A DNA stretch of 64,000 nt. Source: Pseudomonadota bacterium (GTDB lineage: Bacteria; Cyanobacteriota; Vampirovibrionia; Obscuribacterales; Obscuribacteraceae). Below the pieces are notes generated by a model that saw nothing but the letters and a program-made list of their open reading frames with translations, searched no databases and was not told where the DNA came from. The stretch lies in the NCBI GenBank assembly GCA_021324135.1, contig JAJPJO010000168.1, positions 1-64,000 of the forward strand. The letters are read 5' to 3'. Below are positions 504-64,000 of this stretch, one piece after another (the first letter of the stretch is position 1; each line of letters opens with the position of its first letter). The translations under genes and the position numbers were made by a program.

Positions 504-1808
504 ATGATTTTCGTCGTCGCGACAATAATTTTTCTCGTTACTTTGACTAGCTTTCTCTACGTTGCCGGAGAGTTCGCCATAGTCGCGGTCAGAATCGCTC
601 AGGTGCAGAAAATGGCATCCAGCGGGAATGACCTGGCGCGCCGCTTGCAAGCCGTTCTCGACAATCCGCAGCTCCTCGATAGATACATAGCGGCCTGTCA
701 AATTGGAATAACGTTCACTCAGCTCTTTCTCGGCGCTTACGCCGTCATCAATCTGTCGCCGCGCTGCGCGGCATTTTTCATGATCCACGCCGGGCTTGAT
801 GCCGAGGCGGCGGCCTGGGTGGGGAACGCCTGCGTTCTGATTCTTTTGACTTCATCACAAATCATATTTGCCGAGCTTCTTCCAAAGGGGCTGGCATTGC
901 GGTATTCAAACCGTATGGCGCTGGCTCTCTATTGGCCGTTGAACATTTCAGCACGCCTCTTCAAACCGTTTATCTGGCTGCTGAACTCCAGTGGCAATGC
1001 GCTTTTGACATTGTTCGGCATTCCGCTGACCTCGCACAAGCACATACATTCATTGCAAGAGATCGAGCTTCTGCTTGCCGAAAGCAAAGAAGGCGGGCTC
1101 CTCGATCCGCAAGAGCATCAGCGACTTCATCACGCCCTCGAGTTGAGTCAGCAAACCGCCAAACAATTGATGACGCCGCGCACCAAGCTGGCTGCAGTCA
1201 GCTCGAGCATGAGCATCAACGAGTGCTATGCACTGGCGTTGAAAAGTCCCTTCACCAGGTTGCTTGTCTACGGCGATAACATCGATGATGTGCGGGGCAT
1301 CGTCAATGTTAAGGACATCATCTCGGCTCGGGCAGCGCGCCCGAGGGAAACGGGCTTCGAACATTTGGTCAAGAACGTGCCCATCGTTCCCGAGAATCTG
1401 AGCATGGACCGGCTGATCAAGGAATTGAAAGAAGCGCAATCGCACGCCGCGATCGTTATGGATGAGTATGGTGGAACGCTCGGCATTGTCACCGTCGGCG
1501 ATATCTTTGCAGAGCTCATGGGACAAACAGAACGCGACGAGTTTAAGCAAATGCCTAAAGTGGAGGTGCTTGAGGACGGGAGGGTGCGGCTGCCCGGCTG
1601 GTATAAGCTGCGACGCGCCAAGAAATTCATCGGCAATTTCCCTGATACCGAATCTGATACCGTCAACGGGCTGTTGATTGAGAGTCTCGGGCGCGTGCCT
1701 GAGCCTGGTGAGGTTGTGCAGATGAAGGATGTAGTTCTGGAGGTAGTGGGAGTGGAAGGCAATGCGGTCACGTACGTTTTAGCGAAACGGCTTGAGCCGG
1801 CAGAGTAG
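504..1808 (+). CDS. CNNM/CorC/HlyC-family membrane protein with CBS pair (paralogue 1)
   Basis: The 434-residue protein has the full order of this family: an N-terminal DUF21/CNNM transmembrane region (about residues 1-170, opening MIFVVATIIFLVTL), two CBS domains (about 205-265, with MTPRTKLAAV, and 270-335, with VMDEYGGTLGIVTVGDI), and a C-terminal CorC_HlyC domain (about 350-430). Family members are inner-membrane proteins linked to Mg2+ or Na+/Mg2+ transport, with the CBS pair binding adenine nucleotide. An in-frame stop directly upstream makes ATG 504 the first possible start; a strong GGAGG lies 18 bases off, so initiation is somewhat unusual. It is followed 67 bases on by a paralogue. 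The exact ion is not predictable. Confidence 0.93.
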   Translation: MIFVVATIIFLVTLTSFLYVAGEFAIVAVRIAQVQKMASSGNDLARRLQAVLDNPQLLDRYIAACQIGITFTQLFLGAYAVINLSPRCAAFFMIHAGLDAEAAAWVGNACVLILLTSSQIIFAELLPKGLALRYSNRMALALYWPLNISARLFKPFIWLLNSSGNALLTLFGIPLTSHKHIHSLQEIELLLAESKEGGLLDPQEHQRLHHALELSQQTAKQLMTPRTKLAAVSSSMSINECYALALKSPFTRLLVYGDNIDDVRGIVNVKDIISARAARPRETGFEHLVKNVPIVPENLSMDRLIKELKEAQSHAAIVMDEYGGTLGIVTVGDIFAELMGQTERDEFKQMPKVEVLEDGRVRLPGWYKLRRAKKFIGNFPDTESDTVNGLLIESLGRVPEPGEVVQMKDVVLEVVGVEGNAVTYVLAKRLEPAE

Positions 1809-25554: not shown

Positions 25555-26826
25555 ATGGCACAGCCCCTCCTGGAAGTCAGCAAATTGTCGAAACGCTTTT
25601 GCCGCGATCCGCATCGAGGCGCTGCTTATGCCGTGCGTGATATCGTATCTGATATCACGATGCAAGAGAAGCAAGATAGCCTGCGCAACGGAGAGTTTTG
25701 GGCGCTAAGGGATGTGAGCTTCAACGTCAGCCCCGGGGAAGTGGTCGGAATAATTGGGCACAACGGGGCCGGAAAAACGACACTAATCAATCTCGTATCG
25801 GGCATCTTGCGCCCAAGCGTGGGCAAGGTGCGGCTCAATACTGAAAATATTGTGATGATGAGTCATCAGGGGCAGCTGGACTCGGTCCAGAGCGGCAGAG
25901 AAAATATCGTCAATCAACTGCTGCTGTACGGAAGTCAGCAAAATGATTTGGCAGAAAATGTGGAGAAAGTGATTGAATTCTCGGAGCTCGGCAAGTCAAT
26001 TGACGCGCCGGTAGGCACATACAGCCTCGGAATGAAGCTGAGGCTGTCGTTTGCAATATACACACGTCTTAATCCTGATTTATTTGTCGTGGATGAAGCA
26101 CTGAACGGCGGCGATCTTCAGTTCCAGAGGAAGTTTCAAACTTTCCTGGAAGAATACATCGCCGGTGGTGGCGCCATACTTCTGGCATCCCATGACTTGT
26201 ACACCATTCAACTGCTCTGCAACAGATGCATCCTGATGGAAAAAGGCGAGATCGTCGCCATGGGCGATCCGGTAGATGTAATCAACACTTATCAGCTCCT
26301 GGAGAAAACGAATCGTTCCTGCGAGCCGCTTACAGACAGAGCTTCACTTCTGCAAAGCATTGGCGCCATATCAACAGACAACGGCCAGAAGGAAACAGTC
26401 CGAATCGAAGCCGTTCAAGTCACCGCATTTGGTGGCGGTCCGTTGCTGCCCGGAGCGGCGGCGATGCTCGAAATTGTTTGCTCGTGCGATGAAGATCTGG
26501 AAATGGTGGCGTGCGGCGTTTCCATTGGCAGGCATGACGTTTTTCCAGTGGCCATGCTTGGCAGGGATCAGCTTACTTTGAAAAAAGGAAAGAACAAACT
26601 GCGTTGCAAAATTGTGAGTCTGCCGCTGGTGCCCGGCATCTACAACATGACGGTCGGCTTCATTCGCAGCAATGGATATGTGTTGGGACTCAGAGGTTAT
26701 ATGGACAACTCGCTCAGCTTCGAGATAATAAGCAAGCCGGATGCCCTGGTCAATCAAGAAAGATTCCGAAAGTGCGTTGTGCACTTGTCCGCGGACTGGC
26801 AAGCATTAGAGCACTACCGGCAATGA
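25555..26826 (+). CDS. Wzt-type ABC transporter ATP-binding protein with C-terminal domain
   Basis: The 423-residue protein has an ABC ATPase (about residues 5-245): Walker A GHNGAGKTT (about 68-76), the signature YSLGMKLR, Walker B LFVVDEAL and switch histidine ASHD. The remaining 150 residues (SLVPGIYNMTVGF and similar, beta-rich) resemble the Wzt C-terminal carbohydrate-binding domain. This subtype (polysaccharide/teichoic acid exporters) pumps lipid-linked glycans across the inner membrane. GGAAGGCA precedes ATG 25555. The matching permease gene is 1.5 kb downstream, beyond an opposing P450 gene whose 3' end overlaps this one by 21 bases. Confidence 0.92.
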   Translation: MAQPLLEVSKLSKRFCRDPHRGAAYAVRDIVSDITMQEKQDSLRNGEFWALRDVSFNVSPGEVVGIIGHNGAGKTTLINLVSGILRPSVGKVRLNTENIVMMSHQGQLDSVQSGRENIVNQLLLYGSQQNDLAENVEKVIEFSELGKSIDAPVGTYSLGMKLRLSFAIYTRLNPDLFVVDEALNGGDLQFQRKFQTFLEEYIAGGGAILLASHDLYTIQLLCNRCILMEKGEIVAMGDPVDVINTYQLLEKTNRSCEPLTDRASLLQSIGAISTDNGQKETVRIEAVQVTAFGGGPLLPGAAAMLEIVCSCDEDLEMVACGVSIGRHDVFPVAMLGRDQLTLKKGKNKLRCKIVSLPLVPGIYNMTVGFIRSNGYVLGLRGYMDNSLSFEIISKPDALVNQERFRKCVVHLSADWQALEHYRQ

Positions 26827-28077
26827 CTCCAGGCATCTGATCCGAATCGGCATTCGATAAGAAATTTTGTCGTGCGCCAGTTTTATGCCGGGCGCCCTTT
26901 GCACGAGCGTGCTGATTGCCACCTGAGCCAGCAATCTGGCAAGATGCGAGCCGAGACAGAAGTGCGTTCCTGCACCGAATGCCAGATGCCTGTTACTGTT
27001 CGGCCGCAAAATGTCCAATCGATCGGGCTCGTCGAAAATTGCCGGATCTCTATTGGCTGATCCGATTAGCAGATGAACGGTTTCGCCCTTCTTGAGCAAT
27101 TTTGAGCGCAACTCCACATTCTCCTTGATGAAGTAAGGCACAATCTGGCCCGAAGCTTCAAATCGGGCCAGCTCATCAACGGCACGTTCGATATAGGTTG
27201 GATTCGCCCTGAGCAATTCGAACTGGTCCGGATTTCTGAGCAAGGCAAGTACGCCGTTGCCGATTAGAAATGCCGTGCTTTCGAAGGCCGCCATGACCAG
27301 ATAAAGGGCATTGGCAAGGACCGTATCATGAGAGAGCGACCTGCCCTCAGCCTTGTGCTTGAGAAGATCTGTGATTGAGTCATTGGCCGGCTGTCGTTTG
27401 CGCTCCAATACGATGGGCTTGAGTAATGCCGCCAGTCGAGCGGTCGTCTCCTCCAGCTTGTCCCTTTCGGCCAGGACAGGGTCGAAGCAAAGCATTAGCT
27501 CCCTCAAGAGATCGCAAATTTCTTTTGATTCCTGTGGTATTCCGATTTGTTTGAAGGCAAAGTGCGATGAGAGCGGGAAAGCATAATGCTCAAGCAAATC
27601 AAAGGCACCGGTTTGATTCTCAACATCATCCCATAATTGCCGGGCATATTGCGCAATTTCATCAGTCAACATTTGCACGGATTGTTTTGAAAAGCGCTGA
27701 TTTAGTGGTGTACGAATCTTTGTATGCTGGGGCGGATCGTAGTTTGATATGAAGCCTTTCAAATCGATGGCGGGCTGCTTAACGCCCATGAACATCTCAT
27801 TTGAAAGCGACTTCAGTCTCTGGATGAAGCCTCCAAAAGGACAGCTCTGTTCTGAATTGTTCAGCACTTTTGTAAAATTGCGGTCACGTAAGCAGAAGTG
27901 CACATCCTCGTACTTCGAAATCAGCCACCAGTGTCGATCGGCATTATAAAAAACAGGAGCTTGCTCTCTTAGCACCGCATATAGTGCGTAAGGATTCTGG
28001 ACAAATTCGGGGCGGACGGGATCAAAAGGATCCGCCAGAAAAGATAGAGGAGAATCTAATGCCGTGCCCGTTCTCAT
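26806..28077 (-). CDS. Cytochrome P450
   Basis: ATG 28077 (MRTGTALDSPLSFL) has GAAAGG just upstream and is preferred over the ORF limit at 28116, giving 423 residues, the usual size for a soluble bacterial P450. The haem loop is FGAGTHFCLGSHLARL with the thiolate Cys374; the K-helix ExxR is DELARFE; HLAFG and the HTKIRTPLNQRFS (C-helix arginine) segment also fit. The I-helix reads MAAFESTAFL, so the usual AG-x-x-T is AF-E-S-T. It requires ferredoxin partners that are not in the window. It sits on the opposite strand between the two exporter genes and is probably a tailoring enzyme of the locus. Confidence 0.95.
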   Translation of the reverse strand: MRTGTALDSPLSFLADPFDPVRPEFVQNPYALYAVLREQAPVFYNADRHWWLISKYEDVHFCLRDRNFTKVLNNSEQSCPFGGFIQRLKSLSNEMFMGVKQPAIDLKGFISNYDPPQHTKIRTPLNQRFSKQSVQMLTDEIAQYARQLWDDVENQTGAFDLLEHYAFPLSSHFAFKQIGIPQESKEICDLLRELMLCFDPVLAERDKLEETTARLAALLKPIVLERKRQPANDSITDLLKHKAEGRSLSHDTVLANALYLVMAAFESTAFLIGNGVLALLRNPDQFELLRANPTYIERAVDELARFEASGQIVPYFIKENVELRSKLLKKGETVHLLIGSANRDPAIFDEPDRLDILRPNSNRHLAFGAGTHFCLGSHLARLLAQVAISTLVQRAPGIKLAHDKISYRMPIRIRCLESLPVVL

Positions 28078-28336
28078 AGACCTTTCGTTTCTGCAGACGG
28101 CTTGCAAACCGCGCAAAGCCGCTTAGATCTAGCTCAAGACTATACCCCACTCCTGGTTCAACGTTATGAGCATTGCCTTATGGGCAGTCAGCACCTGGAT
28201 TTCCGAGCCAAAATTAGGTGCGGCTAAGATTTCCCTGAGGTTGTCATCTATATAATTGACCAGTCTAGCTGTGTGGCTGTGCGTGCAATCAAACAACCAG
28301 AAATATGATTTGCTGGATCGGGCTCCGTTGTCGACT
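28078..28336. other. 259-bp divergent region between P450 and ABC permease genes
   Basis: Should hold promoters for both flanking genes. No strong box or operator was found. A minus-strand frame (28129-28350) is open here but lacks a ribosome site. Confidence 0.35.
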
Positions 28337-29224
28337 ATGGAGCCGTCCATCGAGCATGCGCAAAATGCGAACAGCGGCTCGGATGCCATCCTGGAATTCG
28401 CCGCTGAAAGCCCTCTTCGCCAGTTCAAAGGCTTTATCAGGCAGGTATGTGACGATTTATTATCCGCCCGGGCTCCCGCCTATCGCTTGTTTAAGAGCGC
28501 CATAGCGCAAAGGTATCGCCATTCTTCTCTGGGACTGCTCTGGGCGTTTTTGCCATCGGCGATAGTGGCGGCCATTGTCTCACTGGGACAGAAGCATGTT
28601 CCTGCGCTTGCTCCAATAGACATTTCCGGTCAGTTTTATGCAATTTTCGGTCTCATTCTTTTCCAAACACTTCTTGAAACCTTCAATACACAGCGATGCC
28701 TGTTCACGGCAAATCGACACCAGCTCAATCGTCACCGGCGCATATTAGAGGCATCTTTTCTGGCTGGACTTCTAGACAATCTGTTCAGCCTGGCTGTGAA
28801 GCTACCCATACTGATTGGCGCCCTTATCTTATGCGGCGTGCATCCTGCCTCGACCGTCATTCTGGGACTGTTTGGTATCCTGCTTGTACTGGCATTCGGC
28901 ACCACGCTGGGAATTCTGGCAGCACCATGGAACGCGCTCAGAGGAGACCTGAATCACGTCATGGGATTTTTTCCCTGGATTCTGGCAGCGACGACGCCTG
29001 TGTTCGTTAAACCCACCGTCGACTCCCTTTGCTGGAAGTACTATCTCCTCAATCCGCTTACCTGGGTCTTTGAAGCAGTGCGAAATTTCTTTTATGGAAA
29101 CGCCACCATGGGTGATGGCATTGTCATGCTTCTCGTTTGCTCCATAACCTTCATCCTACTTCCCGTGAGCTGGCTCATTTGCCGCATTGCCCGTCCCTAT
29201 GTCATTGAGCGAACGATGGTCTGA
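28337..29224 (+). CDS. Wzm-type ABC-2 transporter permease
   Basis: The frame is open from 28256 (TTG), but the sequence up to ATG 28337 (MEPSIEHAQNA) looks non-coding; neither has a strong ribosome site, so the start is uncertain. The product has a cytosolic amphipathic start, the diagnostic AIAQRYRHSSLGLLWAFLPS, and six hydrophobic segments, ending in a short basic tail. This is the membrane half of polysaccharide/lipid exporters and pairs with the Wzt-type ATPase upstream. The stop is three bases before the ATG of the AT-P450 fusion gene, so both are probably cotranscribed. Confidence 0.9.
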   Translation: MEPSIEHAQNANSGSDAILEFAAESPLRQFKGFIRQVCDDLLSARAPAYRLFKSAIAQRYRHSSLGLLWAFLPSAIVAAIVSLGQKHVPALAPIDISGQFYAIFGLILFQTLLETFNTQRCLFTANRHQLNRHRRILEASFLAGLLDNLFSLAVKLPILIGALILCGVHPASTVILGLFGILLVLAFGTTLGILAAPWNALRGDLNHVMGFFPWILAATTPVFVKPTVDSLCWKYYLLNPLTWVFEAVRNFFYGNATMGDGIVMLLVCSITFILLPVSWLICRIARPYVIERTMV

Positions 29225-29227
29225 GCC

Positions 29228-31447
29228 ATGGCCGTGCGAGACTTATACAACAAAATTCAAAACTTGTTCGCCTCAAAGGAGTCGCAGACATTTGCAGGCG
29301 GCCGCCAGCCTCAAGGTCGTCTGCTATTCCTGTTCCCCGGCGCACACGGCTTTTGGCCCGGAATAGGACAGGGACTCTATCGCACTGAGCGCATCTTCCG
29401 GGACACAGTTTGGCAATGCAATAAAGTAGTCGCGGACAGATTCAAGCTAATCGATTATTTTGAAAACAACTTGAGCGAAGAGCTCATCAACAGCGGTCTT
29501 CTGCACTCACCTATTCTTCATGCCGTTATCCATATAGCGCTTTCGGAGCTCTGGCTAGCAAAGGGCGTAGAGCCTCATGGAACTATCGGCTGCAGCATTG
29601 GGGAAGTGACCTCGTGTTATGTCAACCGATCGCTCGGACTGGAAGACATTCTGCGCTGCGCTTCCTTTCCCAGATGTGACCCTGGTCGAATATTCAGTAA
29701 GGCAAAACTGTTCGCCGTTCAGCACAATGCGCAAGTCTTGGACAGGCTCTATAAAGAGTGTCCCGTGCAGGTCTTCACCTGTGCAGAGTTTGGCCCGACC
29801 TTCAATGTTTACGGCTGCTTTCCAGAAGATCTGGGTACAGTCCTGTCTGTTTTGGAAGAGAACAACATTGCTTACTACAGCTTCAGCGGCGATTACGGAC
29901 TTCATATGCCGCTCCAGGAAGGTGGCATGGAGATATTTTTCCAGGAGCTGGGTGAACTGGCACCCGAAAAAGCACGCTACGACTTCTACTCCAATCTGTC
30001 CGGCGCCCAAAACCCGGAAGGAGTCTCACTAGACACCACCTACATGTATTGGCTATCGGTAAAGCCGGCACGTTTTACAGCAGCAATTCGGCAGGCGATC
30101 ATGGATGGCTATGACACCATATTAAGTATCGGCGCCAGCTCGATAATTCTTCCCCAGATTCAGCAGCTTTCTGCTGAAATGGAAACAGAGCTTACGATAC
30201 TCGATTCTATGCGCAGTGACGAGCCTGAGGAGGACACCTTTGAGAAGACATTTTATACTCTTGCCGATCTTGGCTTAGTGAAATCGCGGCGGCATCGGCA
30301 AGCAAGTAACCTCGAATTTAAAGACCAAAAGCACATAACGCCGCAAACTGCGGATCTGCAATCAAGCGAATTTATACAAAATCCATACCTGTACTATGAA
30401 TCTTTGAGGCAAAATGGATCCGTCCATTTCCTCAGCAAGCACGGCTGCTGGATTGTGCTTGATTACGATGATGTTCAATCCGCATTGCGACAACCTCAGT
30501 TGTTTTCCAGTCGCGACCAATCAGTGATTCCCATTTTGGTGGGCTCAGATCCTCCTGCGCACACAGACATTCGGCAAAACATACAGTCGTTTTTTTCCGG
30601 GCGCGAACTATTGCACGTGCAAGGCTACATTGAGGAATGCGCGCGTCGATTATTGCAAGCCTCTACATCTGGGAAAAACGAGTTCGACCTGGTCAACGAT
30701 TATGCCGTACCACTGGCCGATTTAGTGATGGGTCGCTGCCTGGATCTAAAGGAAGCGGATGTGGCAGCTCTTAAACAATGCATTGGCAAAAGCGGAAGCG
30801 ATCACACAGAAGCGATCGAAAACTTTTTTGTGTCCTATCTGAATAACGGCGAAGCGTGCTCGAGAAATCGAATTGCGGACGCCCTCATAACCGGGGCGGG
30901 CGGCAAGAAGTTCACACCAGATGAGATCGCTTCATTGCTTAAGCTGTTCTGGCTTGCAGGAACGACTACGGTCAGCACGCTGATCAGCAGTGCCGCATTT
31001 GTTCTGTTGCATCATCATGTCGTCGCTTATGAGGTTCGAAGCAAGACCGATTTGTTGCCGCAATTCATCGAGGAAGTGCTGCGCTTCGAAACACCTGAGC
31101 AAACAGCAAGACGCATTACCCTGGAGGAAACTGTCGTGTCGGGAGTTACTATCCCCCGAGGCGCACAGGTCAGGCTTTGCGTGGGCGCCGCCAATAGAGA
31201 TCCGAAGAAATTTGCCCGGCCTGATTTGTTCATCCTGGGCCGAAACCCTAAAGAGCATATCGCCTTCGGTGCCGGACCTCACTATTGTCTCGGCGCTGCT
31301 CTTGCCCGCATGGAAGCGCTCGCTGCCATAGAGGCATTGTTAACAGCCTTTCCAAACATGTGCCCCGTCGAATCTCATCGAGCCGCTAGATACGTGCGAC
31401 TCTCAGACCACAGCCGCTCGCTCGAGAAATTGCTCGTGCGGGTCTAG
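29228..31447 (+). CDS. Acyltransferase-cytochrome P450 fusion protein
   Basis: The 739-residue chain joins two enzymes. Residues about 30-335 resemble a polyketide-synthase/FabD acyltransferase: FLFPGAHGFWPGIGQGLY, nucleophile S123 in GCSIGEV (usual GHSLGE) and H226 in GLHMPLQ as the partner histidine. The arginine that binds the malonyl carboxylate (25 residues after the serine) is Pro here, with Arg one place later, so a malonyl substrate is doubtful. Residues about 378-739 are a P450: I-helix LAGTTTVST, ExxR EEVLRFE, haem loop FGAGPHYCLGAALARME with Cys687. Both halves look intact. It is coupled to the exporter permease and converges on the PPTase gene, overlapping its 3' end by 45 bases. 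Confidence 0.88.
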   Translation: MAVRDLYNKIQNLFASKESQTFAGGRQPQGRLLFLFPGAHGFWPGIGQGLYRTERIFRDTVWQCNKVVADRFKLIDYFENNLSEELINSGLLHSPILHAVIHIALSELWLAKGVEPHGTIGCSIGEVTSCYVNRSLGLEDILRCASFPRCDPGRIFSKAKLFAVQHNAQVLDRLYKECPVQVFTCAEFGPTFNVYGCFPEDLGTVLSVLEENNIAYYSFSGDYGLHMPLQEGGMEIFFQELGELAPEKARYDFYSNLSGAQNPEGVSLDTTYMYWLSVKPARFTAAIRQAIMDGYDTILSIGASSIILPQIQQLSAEMETELTILDSMRSDEPEEDTFEKTFYTLADLGLVKSRRHRQASNLEFKDQKHITPQTADLQSSEFIQNPYLYYESLRQNGSVHFLSKHGCWIVLDYDDVQSALRQPQLFSSRDQSVIPILVGSDPPAHTDIRQNIQSFFSGRELLHVQGYIEECARRLLQASTSGKNEFDLVNDYAVPLADLVMGRCLDLKEADVAALKQCIGKSGSDHTEAIENFFVSYLNNGEACSRNRIADALITGAGGKKFTPDEIASLLKLFWLAGTTTVSTLISSAAFVLLHHHVVAYEVRSKTDLLPQFIEEVLRFETPEQTARRITLEETVVSGVTIPRGAQVRLCVGAANRDPKKFARPDLFILGRNPKEHIAFGAGPHYCLGAALARMEALAAIEALLTAFPNMCPVESHRAARYVRLSDHSRSLEKLLVRV

Positions 31448-32179
31448 ATCAGCATATTGGAAATCGTCGATGTGCCAATCGAACGCGCTGATCGTGGGGC
31501 GATCGGATAGGTTCTCGGCCAATGCCGCGGCATAGCAACCAGACGTATTCAACCAGTGCACACGCCAGCCAGAGCTCGATTCGCCTGCTTCATCTATGAT
31601 CGCCGTGCAGCCATTTTGAAAGTGAAAGCTGGGGACTGAGAAGGATTGAAACGACCGAGACAATCCCTGTCCGGTGGCTTTGACAAACGCCTCCTTTGCC
31701 GTCCAGAGGCGAAAAAATGCCTCCTGCTTTTGATCATCGGCAAGTGAATTTAATGCCATCGCCTCGTCTGTCTGGCAGACTCGCAAAGCAATCTCATTGA
31801 TATTTGGTACAGTGCGTATCTTCTCCACATCCACGCCGAGATCCGCATGCGCAGAGACGGCCAAGAGATTCATCCCCCCGGAATGAGAAAAACTAAAACG
31901 CAGTCTCTCTTCATTGGCAATAGACGGTTTACCATAGAGTCCCAATTTAAAAACCACATCTGCCGGATGCACAAACAGGTACTTTGAAAGAACGGCTCGC
32001 AGATATGCTCTGGAGCACATAAAACCTTCTTGCAATTCTTGAGTGACAAAACGATTCGCTCGCTCGAGTTCATCAGAAGATAACCATGTCTTCAATTGCC
32101 GGGAAGCGATGGCGCCTGGTTGGCGACGAAAGGACCAGATGTGGATGTCGCCTTTGCTCAAATGCCAGTTTCTAAGCAT
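31403..32179 (-). CDS. Sfp-type 4'-phosphopantetheinyl transferase
   Basis: The 258-residue pseudo-dimeric enzyme carries GVDVEKI (D117, E119 bind Mg2+) and FRLWTAKEAFVKATG (E163, K167), the two motifs of Sfp-type transferases; GKPSIANEERLRFSFSHSGG precedes them as expected. It attaches phosphopantetheine from CoA to the serine of carrier proteins, here presumably S1367 of the PKS. It lies 19 bases after the type II thioesterase gene in the PKS operon. Its 3' end overlaps the AT-P450 gene on the other strand. Confidence 0.95.
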   Translation of the reverse strand: MLRNWHLSKGDIHIWSFRRQPGAIASRQLKTWLSSDELERANRFVTQELQEGFMCSRAYLRAVLSKYLFVHPADVVFKLGLYGKPSIANEERLRFSFSHSGGMNLLAVSAHADLGVDVEKIRTVPNINEIALRVCQTDEAMALNSLADDQKQEAFFRLWTAKEAFVKATGQGLSRSFQSFSVPSFHFQNGCTAIIDEAGESSSGWRVHWLNTSGCYAAALAENLSDRPTISAFDWHIDDFQYADLDPHEQFLERAAVV

Positions 32180-32198
32180 GTGGAAATCCTTCCATAGA

Positions 32199-32972
32199 TC
32201 AGTCCAGGCGCTTCAGAACTTCACTCAAGAGTTGTCCTCTCACATCTTGCTCCTTCAAAGAGAAATGTCCACCCGGCAGGATATGCATGTCAAAATTCTT
32301 GCTCGTCTGATCGCGCCAGCCCGAAACGTCCTTGGCGCCGGCGCGATGATCATCGCCAAAGGCGAAGGCGGTAATCCCGATATCGAGCGGCTTTTCCTGG
32401 CAGTAGTTGCGCTTCTCCAAGATCGTAAAATCGGCTCTCATAAGTTTAAGAATCAGGGCGCGCATTTCCGCATCGTTAGTGATCGCCTTAGGAGTGCCAC
32501 CAAATGAAGTGACCTCAGATAAGAGATCTGAATCGCACATGGTATGCAAAAGAGGTTGGTGCATAGGCGCTTGCGGTGCCGAAATTGCAGAGACGAAAAG
32601 ATGATTCGGTTGAGCCTTTCCCGATCGGCGAAGAGCGCGGCAAAGCTCAAAGGCAATAATGCTGCCCAGGCTGTGTCCGAAAAAGTAAAATGGCAGATCA
32701 AAGAGCGGGTCCATTTCCTCGACAAGAATAGTTACCAGCTCGCTCAGATCAGTAATTGGCTCCTCGCGCAAACGATGCTCTCTGCCCGGCAGCTGGATCG
32801 CGCAGGTTTCGACATCATTGCCCAAAATGTCCGCCCAGGGCCGGTAACCGAGCGCACCACCGCCTGCCCATGGGAAGCAAAAAATTCGCTTTTTTGCATG
32901 GGGACCATGGTTCCAGCGAAAGATCCACTTACTTGAGGCAAGCGATTCAACATTGGGAAGTGCCGTGCTCAT
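32199..32972 (-). CDS. Type II thioesterase
   Basis: The 257-residue alpha/beta hydrolase has the GrsT/RifR pattern: CFPWAGGGALGYRPWAD at the oxyanion side, IQLPGREHRL, nucleophile S101 in FFGHSLGS and the catalytic H236 in LPGGHFSLKEQ. Such stand-alone enzymes release wrong or stalled acyl groups from carrier proteins; as the PKS has no thioesterase domain of its own, this protein could also release the product. The gene begins five bases after the PKS stop and precedes the PPTase gene by 19 bases, so the three form an operon. Confidence 0.95.
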   Translation of the reverse strand: MSTALPNVESLASSKWIFRWNHGPHAKKRIFCFPWAGGGALGYRPWADILGNDVETCAIQLPGREHRLREEPITDLSELVTILVEEMDPLFDLPFYFFGHSLGSIIAFELCRALRRSGKAQPNHLFVSAISAPQAPMHQPLLHTMCDSDLLSEVTSFGGTPKAITNDAEMRALILKLMRADFTILEKRNYCQEKPLDIGITAFAFGDDHRAGAKDVSGWRDQTSKNFDMHILPGGHFSLKEQDVRGQLLSEVLKRLD

Positions 32973-32977
32973 TCGAA

Positions 32978-35900
32978 TTACCTGTTCGATTGACGAGCTA
33001 GCTCGTTTTGCCGGACCATTTGTTGGGCATCGGGATCGTTCACAACCTTCGCTGCGTCGCCTCGCAACTGCGTCTCAACATACTCGCTCAAGCAGTCTAC
33101 GCTGGGATACTCGTATAACTTTATGGCAGAAATAGCAGGTCCGCCCAGATCAGACTGGATGCGATTTGACAGCTCCACGGCCATCAGTGAATCGATGCCT
33201 AAGTCGAAAAGACTCTGGTTCGAATGGAGGTTTTTATTTGCCGGCCATTTAAGAATCTTGCGCACCTGATGCTCCAGGTATTCCTTCAAGACCTGTATGC
33301 GCTCTGCTGATGCTCCGTGTCTCTCGAGCTCTGCAATGCGGGCTCTCAATACAGCGGTCTGCTCTTGAGCCTCCGCTCTTTCCAATTCCGGCTCGATTTT
33401 TTCGGATGGTCCCGGCTTTCTATTGCGCGAGTTCGAGTTCTGCAATGTCGAGTACTGCAGGACAACCGATTGACTATCGGCTTGTCCGACGATCACTGCT
33501 TGTTGAGTGCCGCTGCCCAGCGTGATCACCTCGACGGATTCAAAACCTTCATCCTTCATTAGTTTCGTCCATTTAGATGAGGCGAGGAAAAGATGGTCGG
33601 GACGCAAATCAAAATCGTTGAAATGCCACCAACCCTCCAAACTGCCAAAGGCAACATCCAACCATACAGCGCTGGCGACCGGCTCGAGCGCGAGAATAAA
33701 TCCGCCCGGGGAGAGAAGCTGTTGAAGACTCCTGATCGATTCTCTGACCGAGCGTGTGGCATGAATGACATTGGCTGCAATTACAACATCAAATTGGTTT
33801 GCCGAAAAGCCTTGTGATTTTGGATTGCACTCCAGGTCGAAGCGCTCAAATTGCATGAATGGGTATTGGGAAAAACGCTGCCGTGCACGCTCCAAGAACA
33901 ATGGCGACACATCGGTAAATACATATTCACATCGCTCGGCAGATAATTCCGGCAAAACAAGATTGGTAGTGCCGCCCGTGCCGGCACCTACCTCCAGTAT
34001 TCTCAATTTCCCTTGGCCCGAAAACTTAGGGATTATCGACCTGAGAATTTCCCTCAATAACTTATTGGCGAGTTTGAAATAGGGTGCGCGGTAATAAACG
34101 TCTTCAAGCGAGACCTCCGGTGGAGCTGGAAACAGCAGCGACAGCGGATCCTGTCCGCCGGACCATAGCAAATGCAGATGGTCGGCGCTACGCTTGAGCA
34201 GAGTAAGCTCTATTGAAAAATCCGGATACCGATCAAGAATATCTTTATGATGCTGCTCGAGATCATCCAGTGACGGCCAACAAACGACGGACCAGAGCTG
34301 GCCCGTCTTCTTCAGAATCCCTGCCTCGATCAGCCGGGTGAGGCAATACTCCACATAACGTCTATGCCGGTCAATGATCCTTAAGTCCTTGCACAACGCA
34401 TCGACTTCAAAAGTATCACCGATTCGAGGCTTCCAACCCAACCTTTCCAGAGCCCTGCATATGTAATCATGGCAGAGTGGCACAAGTTCATTTTGCATGC
34501 CTTGCTCATCTGATAACAGCTCAGCGACATGCCGGTGAGCGAGAATGCCCTCCACTTCCTTAACAACGGCGGCACTATCCAGCTTTGGAAACTTGGCCAC
34601 CAGTTGGCATACCTGCTCCTCCGCCTTCTCCAAAATTTCCAGCCAATAGCGCTCTCGCTGCCAGGGGTAAGTAGGCAATGAAACCTTTCGTCGCTCATAG
34701 AAGCTTTCAAAACCAAGCCAGTCGATCGCCGCTCCGCTCACGTACAGCCGAGCAATACTTTCGAGCAGCACCACCCATGGTGCCTCTCCCCGGCGCATTG
34801 ACGGCAACCATTGCACTTTGCGATCGCCCTGGCAATCCATGCCGAATGTTATAAGCTGAGGTTGCGGACCAAGCTCGACAAATGTATTGCAGCCCTCGTC
34901 CATAGCCTTTTCGATCGCCTGCTGGAATTTGACCACCGCGCGCGTGTTGTTCGCCCAGTATTCCGCATTGATCCCCTCAGGAGCGACCAGGTCCGCAGTT
35001 ATGCTCGAAATCAACGGCAGTCGCAAGTCTTCGTATTCGGCTCTGTTCGCCGCCGCTAACAATTCCCTTTTCACAGGCTCGATATTGCCTGAGTGGAAGG
35101 CATGATATATGGGCAAACGTGTCGCCTGTATAGCTTGCTTCTGGCAAAGCGAAATCAGATCGTCGCATCGATCGAGGCTGCCGGCAACAACCGTCTGGGT
35201 GGGTGAATTGATACAGGCTATCTCAAAATCAGGAATCGCTTTTAGAAGCTCCTCGACTCTTTGCCACGGTGCCTGTACAGCTAACATGGTCCCATTGGGG
35301 TGTTGCCTCGTCAGCCGACCGCGCGCAACAATAAGATCGAGGGCAGTTTCAACCTTCATTGCACCGGCAATGACCGCAGCCGCATATTCTCCCAGGCTAT
35401 GGCCGAGCACCAGATGCGGTACCACACCGAAACTTTGCCATAGTTGCCCGAGAGCGTACTGAAGAGCAAATAAGCAGGAATGGGAGTAGACCACGTCCGA
35501 GAGCATTGGGTTGGTGCCATAAAGTGAATCGAGCAGACTAAATTCTTCATCGTATTGGGAGAAACGGACGGCACATTCATCGATCGCTTCCCGGAAAACC
35601 GGACTTGTACGATACAACTCACGTCCCATCTCCGCATCAAGTGAAAATCCCTGGCCCGAAAACAAGAATGCAATCTTTGGCTTTTCGGTGCCGGTTGCGA
35701 CCGTACCGCTCCGGTAATCGCGAGCGGTAAGCTTAGATCTGAAATCATCGAGATCGCGCGCTACGACAGACAGGCGATGCTCATGTCGAGCTCTACCAGT
35801 ATTGGCTGAGTAGGCTAGATCAGCAAGTTTTTGTCCCGGATGTGCCTGAGCGTGGGAAAGAAAACGCTCTTGAAGTTGCTCCAGCGCCTCAGGAGTTCTA

Positions 35901-37288
35901 GCTGACATTGTAACGACGTGTGCGGTTCTGTCGTCTTGCGGTTCCGTCTCGCCCGACTGCACCGGATATGGTGCCTCCTCCAGGATCAAGTGAGCAATCG
36001 TTCCGCTGGCGCCAAAGGAGCTGACTCCGGCTCTTCGGACGCGGCCTTCCATCTTAGGCCAGCTTGTCATTGATGTTGGCACAGCGGCAGGTATTGCTTG
36101 CCAATTGATCGCCGGATTTGGCTTTTGCAAATGCAGATGAGGTGGAATCGCTTCTTTCTGCAGGCAAAGCACGGTCTTAATCAAGCCGGCCATCCCGGAG
36201 GCTGCCTCAAGGTGACCGAGGTTTGTCTTGCAAGAACCAATGTAGAGCGGTTGCAGGCTTGCCGGCCGGTTCTGAAAGACACGAACCAGTGCTTCTGCCT
36301 CCGTCGGATCGCCTATACTGGTTCCCGTTCCATGAGCCTCGACATAGTCGATGCTGGACGGCGACAATTTTGCCAGTTCGAGTGCTCTTCGAATCAAAGT
36401 CTCTTGCCCGACTGCATTCGGTACCGTCAAGCCGTTTCGTACACCATCCTGAAGAACGGCACTGCTTCGAATTACGGACAGAATCCGATCGCCGTCACGC
36501 TGCGCATCTGCAAGGCGCTTCAGAACAACAACACCACAGCCTTCACCGCGAGAGAAGCCATCAGCGCTGGCATCAAAAGTCTTGCATCGTCCATCCGGGG
36601 AAAGCACGCTTGCTTTGCAGTAATTTATAGTGTGCTCAGGGGTAATCATCAGGTGCACGCCGGCAGCAATGGCACAGTCCGCTTCCCCGTTTAGCAAGCT
36701 GGAGCATGCATTGTGTACCGCCACCAGGGATGATGCACAAGCGGCATCAACCGCCCAACACGGACCCATGAGACCGAGCAAGTATGCCAAGCGTCCGGCA
36801 ATAACATGTGGAACGCTGCTGGTTATGCGAAAGATCGATTGGTCTTCAGACCGATCGTATTTGCTGAGCAGAAAACCATAGTCGTTAGATGAAACGCCGA
36901 CGAAAACGCCGGTGAAGCTACCGTTCAGTTTGTCCGGGTTTATGCCTGCATCTTCCAGCGCTTCCCAGGCGACCTCGAGAAAGAGCCTCTGTTGTGGATC
37001 CATCCACTCGGCTTCGCGCGGACTGATGCCGAAGAACTGTGCGTCGAACTCATCGATTGGACATTCAAGGAAACCGCCCTCACGAACGAACATTTTGCCG
37101 GGCGCTTCCGGATCAGGGTCATAGTGATCCGCAGCCCGCCAACGCTCTTCCGGAATTGGTCTAATGGCATCGACGCTTCTTTCTAAAATCTGCCAGTAAG
37201 AATCGATATCGTGTGCGCCGCCGGGAAAGCGACACCCCATGCCGATAATGGCAATTGCTTCCGGTTGCCTGCTAGAGTCTAGAACCAT
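32978..37288 (-). CDS. Type I polyketide synthase, one module: KS-AT-cMT-ACP
   Basis: The 1436-residue protein has a ketosynthase (about 8-435; C184 in DAACASS, H319 in VEAHGTGT, H359 in NLGHLEAASG), an acyltransferase (about 535-860; S631 in GHSLGEY, R656, H732), a SAM methyltransferase (about 940-1270; LEVGAGTGGTT), a charged coiled coil (about 1297-1345) and an acyl carrier domain (S1367 in LGIDSLMAVEL). HAFH at the AT active site points to malonyl-CoA. The MT type is that of C-methylating PKSs. No ketoreductase, dehydratase, enoylreductase or thioesterase domain is present, so one round would leave an alpha-methyl-beta-keto thioester. It leads an operon with the thioesterase and PPTase. 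Confidence 0.96.
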   Translation of the reverse strand: MVLDSSRQPEAIAIIGMGCRFPGGAHDIDSYWQILERSVDAIRPIPEERWRAADHYDPDPEAPGKMFVREGGFLECPIDEFDAQFFGISPREAEWMDPQQRLFLEVAWEALEDAGINPDKLNGSFTGVFVGVSSNDYGFLLSKYDRSEDQSIFRITSSVPHVIAGRLAYLLGLMGPCWAVDAACASSLVAVHNACSSLLNGEADCAIAAGVHLMITPEHTINYCKASVLSPDGRCKTFDASADGFSRGEGCGVVVLKRLADAQRDGDRILSVIRSSAVLQDGVRNGLTVPNAVGQETLIRRALELAKLSPSSIDYVEAHGTGTSIGDPTEAEALVRVFQNRPASLQPLYIGSCKTNLGHLEAASGMAGLIKTVLCLQKEAIPPHLHLQKPNPAINWQAIPAAVPTSMTSWPKMEGRVRRAGVSSFGASGTIAHLILEEAPYPVQSGETEPQDDRTAHVVTMSARTPEALEQLQERFLSHAQAHPGQKLADLAYSANTGRARHEHRLSVVARDLDDFRSKLTARDYRSGTVATGTEKPKIAFLFSGQGFSLDAEMGRELYRTSPVFREAIDECAVRFSQYDEEFSLLDSLYGTNPMLSDVVYSHSCLFALQYALGQLWQSFGVVPHLVLGHSLGEYAAAVIAGAMKVETALDLIVARGRLTRQHPNGTMLAVQAPWQRVEELLKAIPDFEIACINSPTQTVVAGSLDRCDDLISLCQKQAIQATRLPIYHAFHSGNIEPVKRELLAAANRAEYEDLRLPLISSITADLVAPEGINAEYWANNTRAVVKFQQAIEKAMDEGCNTFVELGPQPQLITFGMDCQGDRKVQWLPSMRRGEAPWVVLLESIARLYVSGAAIDWLGFESFYERRKVSLPTYPWQRERYWLEILEKAEEQVCQLVAKFPKLDSAAVVKEVEGILAHRHVAELLSDEQGMQNELVPLCHDYICRALERLGWKPRIGDTFEVDALCKDLRIIDRHRRYVEYCLTRLIEAGILKKTGQLWSVVCWPSLDDLEQHHKDILDRYPDFSIELTLLKRSADHLHLLWSGGQDPLSLLFPAPPEVSLEDVYYRAPYFKLANKLLREILRSIIPKFSGQGKLRILEVGAGTGGTTNLVLPELSAERCEYVFTDVSPLFLERARQRFSQYPFMQFERFDLECNPKSQGFSANQFDVVIAANVIHATRSVRESIRSLQQLLSPGGFILALEPVASAVWLDVAFGSLEGWWHFNDFDLRPDHLFLASSKWTKLMKDEGFESVEVITLGSGTQQAVIVGQADSQSVVLQYSTLQNSNSRNRKPGPSEKIEPELERAEAQEQTAVLRARIAELERHGASAERIQVLKEYLEHQVRKILKWPANKNLHSNQSLFDLGIDSLMAVELSNRIQSDLGGPAISAIKLYEYPSVDCLSEYVETQLRGDAAKVVNDPDAQQMVRQNELARQSNR

Positions 37289-61495: not shown

Positions 61496-63589
61496 ATGAC
61501 CAAGGACACCCCGGGTCCAATCCTCATCGTTGACGAGCATGAAGATTTTCGCAATCAGTTGGTCGCGCTCTTGAGCGAGCTAGGCTATCAAGTAGAGGCG
61601 GTCACCTCTACTGAAGATGCTACCAAATGCATAGCCGAGCAAATTCCGGTCCTTGCTATAGTTGATTGGAGAAGCCCAGGACAAGAGGGCTGGAACTGGA
61701 TCAAGAAGGTGCGCGAGCAGGGCAAGCAATTTCCAATCGTGGCTTTGACGGACTCGTGGTGCGACTCGACTACATTTCATTGGCTGAGAAATATTCTCAC
61801 GGTCTCGCTAATTCTGCAAAAGCCGATCGTGCCGGAACTATTCATCCATCAAATCGGTGATTTCTTGCCGAGTTTTCCGGATCGACGATCATCCACCACC
61901 GAGAGTCAATTGCCCGAGGTTGGGCTGCTCGAGCGCCTGCGAGCTGATGCCGGCGTAAAGGACAGTGTTGCGCCCGGGCCGGTGCTCAAGCCGAGTGTCA
62001 GACAGAAGATCGAGCAGCACAGAGCTGTTTATGTTAGAAGATTGATCGACACGTGGAACGATCTCTCATCCTTGATCAGTTGCGCGACGACGGATGCAAA
62101 TGCGGCTCAGGAAGCGGCTTTGCTCGCACATAAGATCAGAGGAACGGCAGGGTCTCTCGATTTAGCGAAGATCACTCAGTCCGCCATTCGTATCGAAGAA
62201 TCCCTGATTCTCGTGTATTCCAATCCCGGCTCGGAATCGAAAGCACATTGGGAAGAAATCCTCTCGGCTCTGGGAGACGGCGCATGCGCCATTGAAGAAG
62301 CGGCCAGTCAACTTCACTTCGATGGTGAGGAAACAAACATAGCTAACGCCGCTAAGATTCTCATCCTGTGCAAGAGCGATCACCTTCCTGCATGCACCAG
62401 TCAATTAAACACGAGCTATCCGGTTGAAATCGACATGGTCGAAAATCCGGCTCGCGCACTTGCAAAGACCGGCAGTGAGCCGTACAGCGCCTGCTTCATC
62501 GATCTTTCCTTGAGTGAGAAACAAAAACTTTTCGACTTCACCCGAGCGATCAGATCGATATCCGGTCATGAGGCCTTGCCACTAGGTTTGGTGGCAGATG
62601 ATCCCAATGTTCTTAGCGCGGCGGAGCAATTGTACATAGGCTCGTCCATCAATATGTCTTCCAGGTTTGACAAAGCAACACTGGAGACGGCGGTCAACCA
62701 GCTCCTTCATTATGCCAACACTCGCAAGCCCCGCATTCTGGTCATGGATGACGACGAGCAACTCAACAAAATGATTGCCACCACCCTTGATGGCTTCGGG
62801 ATGGTGGTAAAAACGCTCAGCAATCCAGTGCAAATCGTCAAGGTGGCTCGCGACTTCAGGCCCGACCTTGTCATTCTAGATGTAGTCATGCCCGGAATGA
62901 GCGGCTATGACGCGTGCCGAATGCTGCGCACGCTCGAGGAATGCAAGAACACGGCCGTGCTCTTTCTCACAGCCCGCAGCGATCCGGCAGCCCGTCGGGC
63001 AGCGTACTATGCCGGGGCAAACGACTTTCTGGTAAAGCCGGTTTTGCCTCGCGAGCTGCTTGCCAGAGTGCGCTCGCAGTTGGATCAGGCCAGCTTGTTG
63101 ACCGGCAGGCATGAGCGAGACCCACTTACCGGTGCCTTGACGCGCGGTGAATATATGATCGCCACTAATGAAGCGCTCGAATTTGCCCGGGCGCACAGCT
63201 TGAAACTGAGTGTTGCCTTGATGACCATCGACGGATTCGTCAGCTTGCTTTTATCGCGCGGCATGAGTTATGTCGAAGGCGGCGTCGCTGCTCTAGGCAA
63301 GCTCTTATCGTGCCGTTTTCGCGCCGAAGAGATTCGCGGGCGGTGGGGCGATGAAGGCTTTGCTCTCACTTTCATGAATCAGGAGCATGCCACCGTCCGT
63401 GATGCACTGTCGCTGCTGCTCGAGGAATTCATGTCGCCGGAAAAAGCGGCGGGTTTCAGAGCCTCATTCAGCGCCGGCATCGCCACCTATCCGCAAGACG
63501 GCACTGTTCTGGAAACCTTGCTCACATCGGCACAAAAACGCTTAATCGCCAACAGCTGCACCACTGTGGTCGGCTCATTTAAGGAGTAA
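61496..63589 (+). CDS. Multi-receiver response regulator with HPt and degenerate GGDEF domain
   Basis: The 697-residue protein has a receiver (about 8-125; D57 in AIVDWRS), an HPt domain (about 165-275; H212 in AHKIRGTAGS), a second receiver-like domain (about 285-405; D336 in CFIDLSL), a canonical receiver (about 412-530; D462 in VILDVVMPG, LFLTARS, LVKP) and a GGDEF-type domain (540-697; DPLTGALTRGEY). The signature is RWGDEGF (617-622) instead of RWGGDEF, so diguanylate cyclase activity is doubtful. No output DNA-binding domain. It probably passes phosphate within a multistep relay. The start has only a weak GAGAA. Confidence 0.9.
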   Translation: MTKDTPGPILIVDEHEDFRNQLVALLSELGYQVEAVTSTEDATKCIAEQIPVLAIVDWRSPGQEGWNWIKKVREQGKQFPIVALTDSWCDSTTFHWLRNILTVSLILQKPIVPELFIHQIGDFLPSFPDRRSSTTESQLPEVGLLERLRADAGVKDSVAPGPVLKPSVRQKIEQHRAVYVRRLIDTWNDLSSLISCATTDANAAQEAALLAHKIRGTAGSLDLAKITQSAIRIEESLILVYSNPGSESKAHWEEILSALGDGACAIEEAASQLHFDGEETNIANAAKILILCKSDHLPACTSQLNTSYPVEIDMVENPARALAKTGSEPYSACFIDLSLSEKQKLFDFTRAIRSISGHEALPLGLVADDPNVLSAAEQLYIGSSINMSSRFDKATLETAVNQLLHYANTRKPRILVMDDDEQLNKMIATTLDGFGMVVKTLSNPVQIVKVARDFRPDLVILDVVMPGMSGYDACRMLRTLEECKNTAVLFLTARSDPAARRAAYYAGANDFLVKPVLPRELLARVRSQLDQASLLTGRHERDPLTGALTRGEYMIATNEALEFARAHSLKLSVALMTIDGFVSLLLSRGMSYVEGGVAALGKLLSCRFRAEEIRGRWGDEGFALTFMNQEHATVRDALSLLLEEFMSPEKAAGFRASFSAGIATYPQDGTVLETLLTSAQKRLIANSCTTVVGSFKE

Positions 63590-63650
63590 GCAGAAAAACA
63601 TTACACTGCCATTCGCGGCAGATGGTGATGCGTGCTAAACTTCTCGTTTA

Positions 63651-63695
63651 GGCGATGGGGTTCGCCATAACCGCCGTCAGGCTGATGACTCCTAC
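63651..63695 (+). ncRNA. Fluoride riboswitch (crcB motif)
   Basis: The element GGCGATGGGGTTCGCC-ATAACC-GCC-GTCA-GGC-TGATGACTCCTAC matches the crcB-motif aptamer: hairpin GGCG/CGCC, conserved ATAA-CGCC, second hairpin GCC/GGC, and TGAtGACxCCTAC. The pseudoknot pairs loop GGGGT (63656-63662 region) with ACTCC (63688-63692), including one G.U pair. It lies 57 bases before a cation:proton antiporter gene, a gene type known to be controlled by fluoride riboswitches. Confidence 0.93.
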
Positions 63696-63743
63696 TGAGA
63701 ACTGCAAGCGAGGCGTTCCGCCGCGCAGTGAATTTGGTAGGAG
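63689..63743 (+). promoter_or_regulatory. Anti-Shine-Dalgarno/Shine-Dalgarno switch downstream of the fluoride aptamer
   Basis: CTCCTAC (63689-63695) at the 3' edge of the aptamer is an exact complement of GTAGGAG (63737-63743), the ribosome site of the antiporter gene, and the helix can be extended to 11 pairs with G.U wobbles. It shares ACTCC with the ligand-stabilised pseudoknot, so the two pairings exclude each other. Between them, a GGCG-TTC-CGCC hairpin (about 63711-63721) is closed by ACTGC/GCAGT. Confidence 0.75.
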
Positions 63744-63751
63744 GCTTAGTC

Positions 63752-64000
63752 GTGGCTGAAAATGTTTGGTTCATCTCGGCAATCTGGATCGCCTTAGCGC
63801 TCCTGTCATCTCTTATTTCAATTCGCATAGCGCTCTCGGTCGCGCTCATCGAAATCGTCGTCGGCTCCCTGGCCGGCAACCTGATCAAACTCGAGATTAC
63901 GCCCTGGGTGAATTACCTGGCCAGTGTAGGATCGATTCTACTCACCTTTCTTGCCGGCGCTGAGATCGATCCGAGCGTGATCAAAAGAAATTTCTGGTCG
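63752..64000 (+). CDS. Cation:proton antiporter (CPA2-like), 5' part only
   Basis: GTG 63752 has AGGAGG eight bases upstream and begins MAENVWFISAIWIALALLSS. The first 83 residues contain three hydrophobic helices and LASVGSILLTFLAGAEIDPS, the segment of Kef/Nha-type CPA2 antiporters where a helix ends with 'L-F-x-AG-x-E-x-D'. The gene runs beyond the window. Since it follows a fluoride riboswitch, it probably helps cells to withstand fluoride, by exporting F- or countering its pH effect. Ion and mechanism are not shown by this fragment. Confidence 0.88.
   Translation, partial: MAENVWFISAIWIALALLSSLISIRIALSVALIEIVVGSLAGNLIKLEITPWVNYLASVGSILLTFLAGAEIDPSVIKRNFWS

Follow-up and report, generated by a model that had tools for sequence, protein, structure and literature searches.

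The window analysed here, the 64,000 nucleotides (nt) at positions 1 to 64,000 of contig JAJPJO010000168.1 from an Obscuribacteraceae genome (GCA_021324135.1), contains near its 3′ end a fluoride riboswitch in the 5′ leader of a cation:proton antiporter gene. The arrangement of this leader makes it very probable that the riboswitch works as a translational ON switch, sequestering the Shine-Dalgarno (SD) sequence of the antiporter gene. The cmscan search placed the Rfam fluoride riboswitch RF01734 (crcB motif) at 63642–63701 on the + strand, where all the leader elements described below also lie, with model positions 1–64 complete (60.6 bits, E 2.4e-14). An earlier reading made from the sequence alone had recognised a crcB-motif core with both hairpins and a pseudoknot, and the covariance model it proposed as a check bears this out with a score far over the curated cut-off of 34 bits. 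The range it gave, 63651–63751, is sound in its coordinates, except that the aptamer begins 9 nt earlier, at 63642, and the GTG start codon (63752–63754) lies just outside. The covariance evidence marks the element as a genuine fluoride-sensing RNA switch, which would bind F− together with Mg2+, and it is the only RF01734 copy in the whole genome (8 Mb, 574 contigs).

The Rfam alignment defines hairpin P1 at 63651–63666 (GGCG-AUGGGGUU-CGCC, stems 63651–63654 and 63663–63666) and hairpin P3 at 63673–63682 (GCC-GUCA-GGC, stems 63673–63675 and 63680–63682). The 5′ strand of the pseudoknot, GGGGU, lies within the P1 loop (63657–63661) in a register that the known fold suggests, while its putative 3′ strand, ACUCC (63688–63692), was assigned from the consensus and the sequence; the duplex energy of GGGGU:ACUCC is −4.5 kcal/mol. 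The strands of P1, P3 and the pseudoknot are complementary, and the GTG start codon follows the aptamer by 51 nt.

The 3′ end of the aptamer links fluoride sensing to the ribosome site. The segment CTCCTAC (63689–63695) is an exact seven-base complement of GTAGGAG (63737–63743), as the sequence-only reading had noticed, although it understated the extent of the pairing: minimum-free-energy and centroid folds predict a helix of 11 bp, including three G-U pairs, between 63689–63699 and 63733–63743. GTAGGAG occurs twice in the 64-kb window, both strands counted, exactly at these two arms, and 2.9 copies would be expected by chance anywhere. The arm UUUGGUAGGAG (63733–63743) contains most of the SD, AGGAGG (63739–63744), which stands 7 nt before the GTG. 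The anti-SD arm, CUCCUACUGAG (63689–63699), shares four nucleotides (63689–63692) with the 3′ strand of the pseudoknot, and since these are common to both structures, the pseudoknot and the sequestering helix are mutually exclusive. In the folds a spacer hairpin (63700–63730), with no U-run after it, brings the two arms together.

Complementarity by itself proves little: CUCCUAC, which the aptamer conserves, is itself similar to an anti-SD, and about five of its bases match any strong AGGAG site. For this reason own and swapped pairings were compared among fluoride leaders gathered in 868 partly overlapping genome searches within this phylum and class and from 398 genomes of the Mesorhizobium phylum. 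The duplex energy of each aptamer strand with its own ribosome site was set against that with the sites of other leaders in a curated set of 37; an earlier automatic set, with doubtful starts near hairpins, had been dropped in favour of this one and its GC strata. The mean energy was −9.4 kcal/mol for own and −7.6 kcal/mol for swapped pairs (z −6.0), and none of 20,000 swaps was as good. Confining the swaps to four GC strata gave z −4.2 (p 5e-5) and restricting them to class relatives (n 19) gave p 1e-4, values that are indicative only, related sequences not being independent.

Two-sided changes, CUCCUAU/AUAGGAG among them, occur in the curated set, with examples in the leaders L106 (CUCCUAUC/GAUAGGAG), L122b (CUCCUGC/GCAGGAG), L010 (CUCCUGAUC/GAUCAGGAG) and L027 (CUUCUGCC/GGCAGAAG). 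The same-family orthologue (81% identity) keeps a 10-bp helix, CUCCUACCAA/UUGGUAGGAG, around a different, unrelated and shorter loop (fold z −2.98). L014 and L082, from class members further removed that carry the same antiporter, have a predicted helix of 13 bp; their pseudoknot strand reads GCUUC, and their SD region has changed to match, GGAGC. The predicted anti-SD:SD pairing is thus conserved with compensatory changes in relatives, which supports the anti-SD switch put forward in the sequence-only reading. In other fluoride leaders, such as most of the cyanobacterial ones, the complement of the aptamer strand is at a long distance from the start codon, as would suit a platform of a different kind. 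Leader L010 (aptamer match 1501–1563) shows a further arrangement: the aptamer-paired SD, GATCAGGAG, precedes a short open reading frame. The stop of this frame and the ATG of an ABC transporter gene overlap (TCATGA), which suggests control of the transporter by translational coupling.

In transcriptional fluoride riboswitches the pseudoknot forms first and the platform invades it unless fluoride is bound (PMC11077080). Where the platform holds an SD, such a competition would yield a translational ON switch. Without fluoride, the strand 63689–63699 would leave the pseudoknot and form the 11-bp helix with the ribosome site at 63733–63743, capped by the spacer hairpin, and translation would be blocked. 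With Mg2+ and F−, the pseudoknot 63657–63661:63688–63692 would hold this strand, leaving the SD single-stranded and the antiporter translated, probably along with the universal stress protein (Usp) encoded by the next gene downstream. This direction of switching, with the pseudoknot stabilised by F− and the SD released, is the one we infer, and it agrees with the published strand competition (PMC11077080). The antiporter itself would presumably serve in fluoride or pH stress.

Several results weigh against a translational switch of this kind or qualify it. Of the two states that the sequence-only reading had wanted folded, the sequestered one appeared in the minimum-free-energy and centroid folds. 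Nearest-neighbour energies, calculated without tertiary, Mg2+ or F− terms, were −47.6 kcal/mol for the sequestered form and −33.6 plus about −4.5 for the pseudoknot (about −38 kcal/mol) for the ON model, so that the OFF state is favoured by about 9–10 kcal/mol, and the SD is only partly exposed in the ON model. The thermodynamic z-score of the whole leader is unremarkable (−1.4) and that of its 3′ part is −1.9; such scores were considered too weak as proof of the helix, and the swap test was used in their place. In the swap set, start codons were assigned by rule, three of them being hand-corrected, and the leaders L083, L093 and L003 pair little, so the platform is not universal. With OFF favoured by this much, switching is more likely to be decided during transcription than at equilibrium, and the model suggests a kinetic choice between the states.

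Other explanations of the leader were considered. Transcription termination, as in B. cereus and T. petrophila, is the mode of the best-studied fluoride riboswitches and uses the same 3′ strand (PMC11077080; PMC13273304). Here, however, no U-run follows the hairpin, a search of 63400–63800 on the + strand revealed nothing terminator-like, and what the 3′ strand pairs with is the SD itself, 7 nt ahead of the GTG; termination was rejected for want of the U-run, and we consider it very improbable. It is very improbable, too, that the aptamer is real and its match to the SD incidental, CUCCUAC being anti-SD-like and GUAGGAG simply a strong SD, with regulation through Rho, through RNA decay or not at all. 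The conservation of the aptamer strand for ligand binding would by itself yield about five bases matching any strong SD, and some fluoride leaders do pair poorly, but an incidental match accounts neither for the result of the swap test (z −6.0) and the two-sided changes outside the SD core nor for an orthologous helix kept though its loop has changed. A decayed aptamer or a chance match without function can scarcely be entertained: nothing specific speaks for it beyond a fragmented genome assembly, whereas the match is full-length at 60.6 bits with core positions kept, it stands correctly ahead of a kind of gene already known to be under such control, and an orthologous riboswitch–antiporter arrangement is present in a second genome (G017).

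The gene under control starts at GTG 63752–63754 and runs past the window end (63752–64000; 1753–2904 in locus L002), encoding a protein of 383 aa. The earlier identification of a cation:proton antiporter is supported by a full-length match to PF00999 (Na_H_Exchanger; E 1.1e-39, residues 14–362) and by a match to TIGR00932, the NCBI CPA2 model (E 7.3e-29). The latter scores 101 bits, below the cut-off of 238, and the protein, as a divergent relative, is therefore named CPA2-type only. The ion-binding aspartate of the mid-protein ND/TD/QD motif lies in ACFITD here, and most relatives have ND or TD. In antiporters of one genus (L171/L082 in G463 and L170 in G089) this conserved aspartate is lost, TN replacing TD/ND, and one of these still has a fluoride riboswitch. 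The antiporter gene is followed by genes for a Usp, a DUF308/HdeD-like membrane protein and a DinB-type polymerase.

The nearest named relative is a Candidatus Melainabacteria contig, at 82% over its best segment; two Desulfobacteraceae genomes (72–73%) and Mesorhizobium (68%) come next. Antiporters of more distant class members are only about 40–46% identical, and the gene has therefore probably moved horizontally. A fluoride riboswitch lies upstream of the antiporter in the Melainabacteria, Mesorhizobium and one of the Desulfobacteraceae loci, and upstream of related antiporters on plasmids of Enterobacter, Methylocystis, Rubrobacter and Rhizobium. A distant blastn search of plasmids gave only a single aptamer match. 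No riboswitch was found on searching before the antiporters of G062 and G089 (L167, L170) or near L058.

CrcB was not detected in this genome, and its single CLC carries an EASGSGIP (GSGIP) motif, which we take to be of the chloride type; on this motif the protein was rejected as a CLC-F exporter. In such a genome the antiporter may therefore be the main fluoride defence. Within the class, the antiporter is present in 7 of 382 genomes, with the riboswitch directly upstream in five of the seven. CrcB was found in none of these seven and in 202 of 297 others (Fisher p 4e-4), and within the family in neither of two antiporter-bearing genomes and in 44 of 48 others (p 0.012), counts to be read with the shared ancestry of the genomes and the incompleteness of some assemblies in mind. 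An exclusion between antiporter and CrcB within the class is suggestive only. It is not general, since Mesorhizobium has both, as does G754, a genome with a leader matching that of the Enterobacter plasmids. The absence of CrcB from all seven genomes raises the question of whether a CPA2-type transporter alone can protect from fluoride. It is a tentative and rather doubtful proposal that in several lineages the main fluoride-induced defence at the membrane is a riboswitch-controlled CPA2-type antiporter in place of CrcB/Fluc and CLC-F, and that it either moves fluoride itself or shifts cytoplasmic pH, letting fluoride escape as HF. In a separate locus (L028 in G456; aptamer 1501–1563, minus strand), the crcB gene 3′ of the riboswitch appears frameshifted at a T run, which may reflect a sequencing error or a broken gene.

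Another genome of the same family (G002) holds eight fluoride riboswitch matches, seven of them over the cut-off, in about 61 kb of its contig C1 (106949–168310; L061, L062, L063). Genes near them encode an ABC-HlyD-OEP exporter with Usp and MFS proteins, a HAD phosphatase, a GH57 branching enzyme, a TPR-like protein and a 492-aa protein that is MutS-like by eye; the cluster looks like a fluoride-response island. Elsewhere in the window, at 26806–37288, the translations point by eye to a polyketide-type biosynthetic cluster, with a 1436-aa ketosynthase/acyltransferase, a thioesterase, a phosphopantetheinyl transferase, a P450 and an acyltransferase-P450 fusion.

Fluoride riboswitches form an established class, and Na+/H+ antiporters are among the genes that they are known to control. 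For some members, control at the level of translation has already been presumed in the literature (PMC8814607). In a 2024 review, which cites earlier work, Na+/H+ antiporters come next in frequency after fluoride exporters among riboswitch-associated classes (PMC11139923). Less expected are antiporter-bearing class genomes without CrcB and, in the genome studied here, a CLC that is presumably of the chloride type; this host, with no detected CrcB and only a GSGIP-motif CLC, stands apart among riboswitch-controlled Na+/H+ antiporters. The antiporter shares the fold family of KefC, a CPA2 protein of known structure (8bxg, E 7.7e-10), but the match is weak, far below the KefB/KefC equivalog cut-offs, and 383 aa leave no room for the C-terminal regulatory domain. 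The antiporter–Usp operons on Enterobacter, Methylocystis and Rubrobacter plasmids likewise have a fluoride riboswitch upstream, an antiporter about half-identical to this one and a Usp gene 3′ of it; they differ in their leaders (91–124 nt, with less perfect SD pairing) and in neighbours that include MutS, CrcB or enolase. In the fluoride-resistance operon of Enterobacter cloacae FRM, a fluoride riboswitch also controls genes that include a Usp; none of them is named as an antiporter (PMC5533749). For the terminator form of the fluoride riboswitch, a 2026 study has provided covariation models (PMC13273304); no equivalent model for the SD form was found in the literature searched. The leader described here has the complete RF01734 aptamer, with P1, P3, the pseudoknot strands and the conserved 3′ UAC, and apparently the same competition between pseudoknot and platform, but its platform would sequester an SD where those of the well-studied cases form an intrinsic terminator. 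Mechanistic studies of fluoride riboswitches have mostly dealt with terminators; in this leader the pseudoknot strand used there would act against a ribosome site, and compensatory change across species makes this leader a compact and testable translational example.
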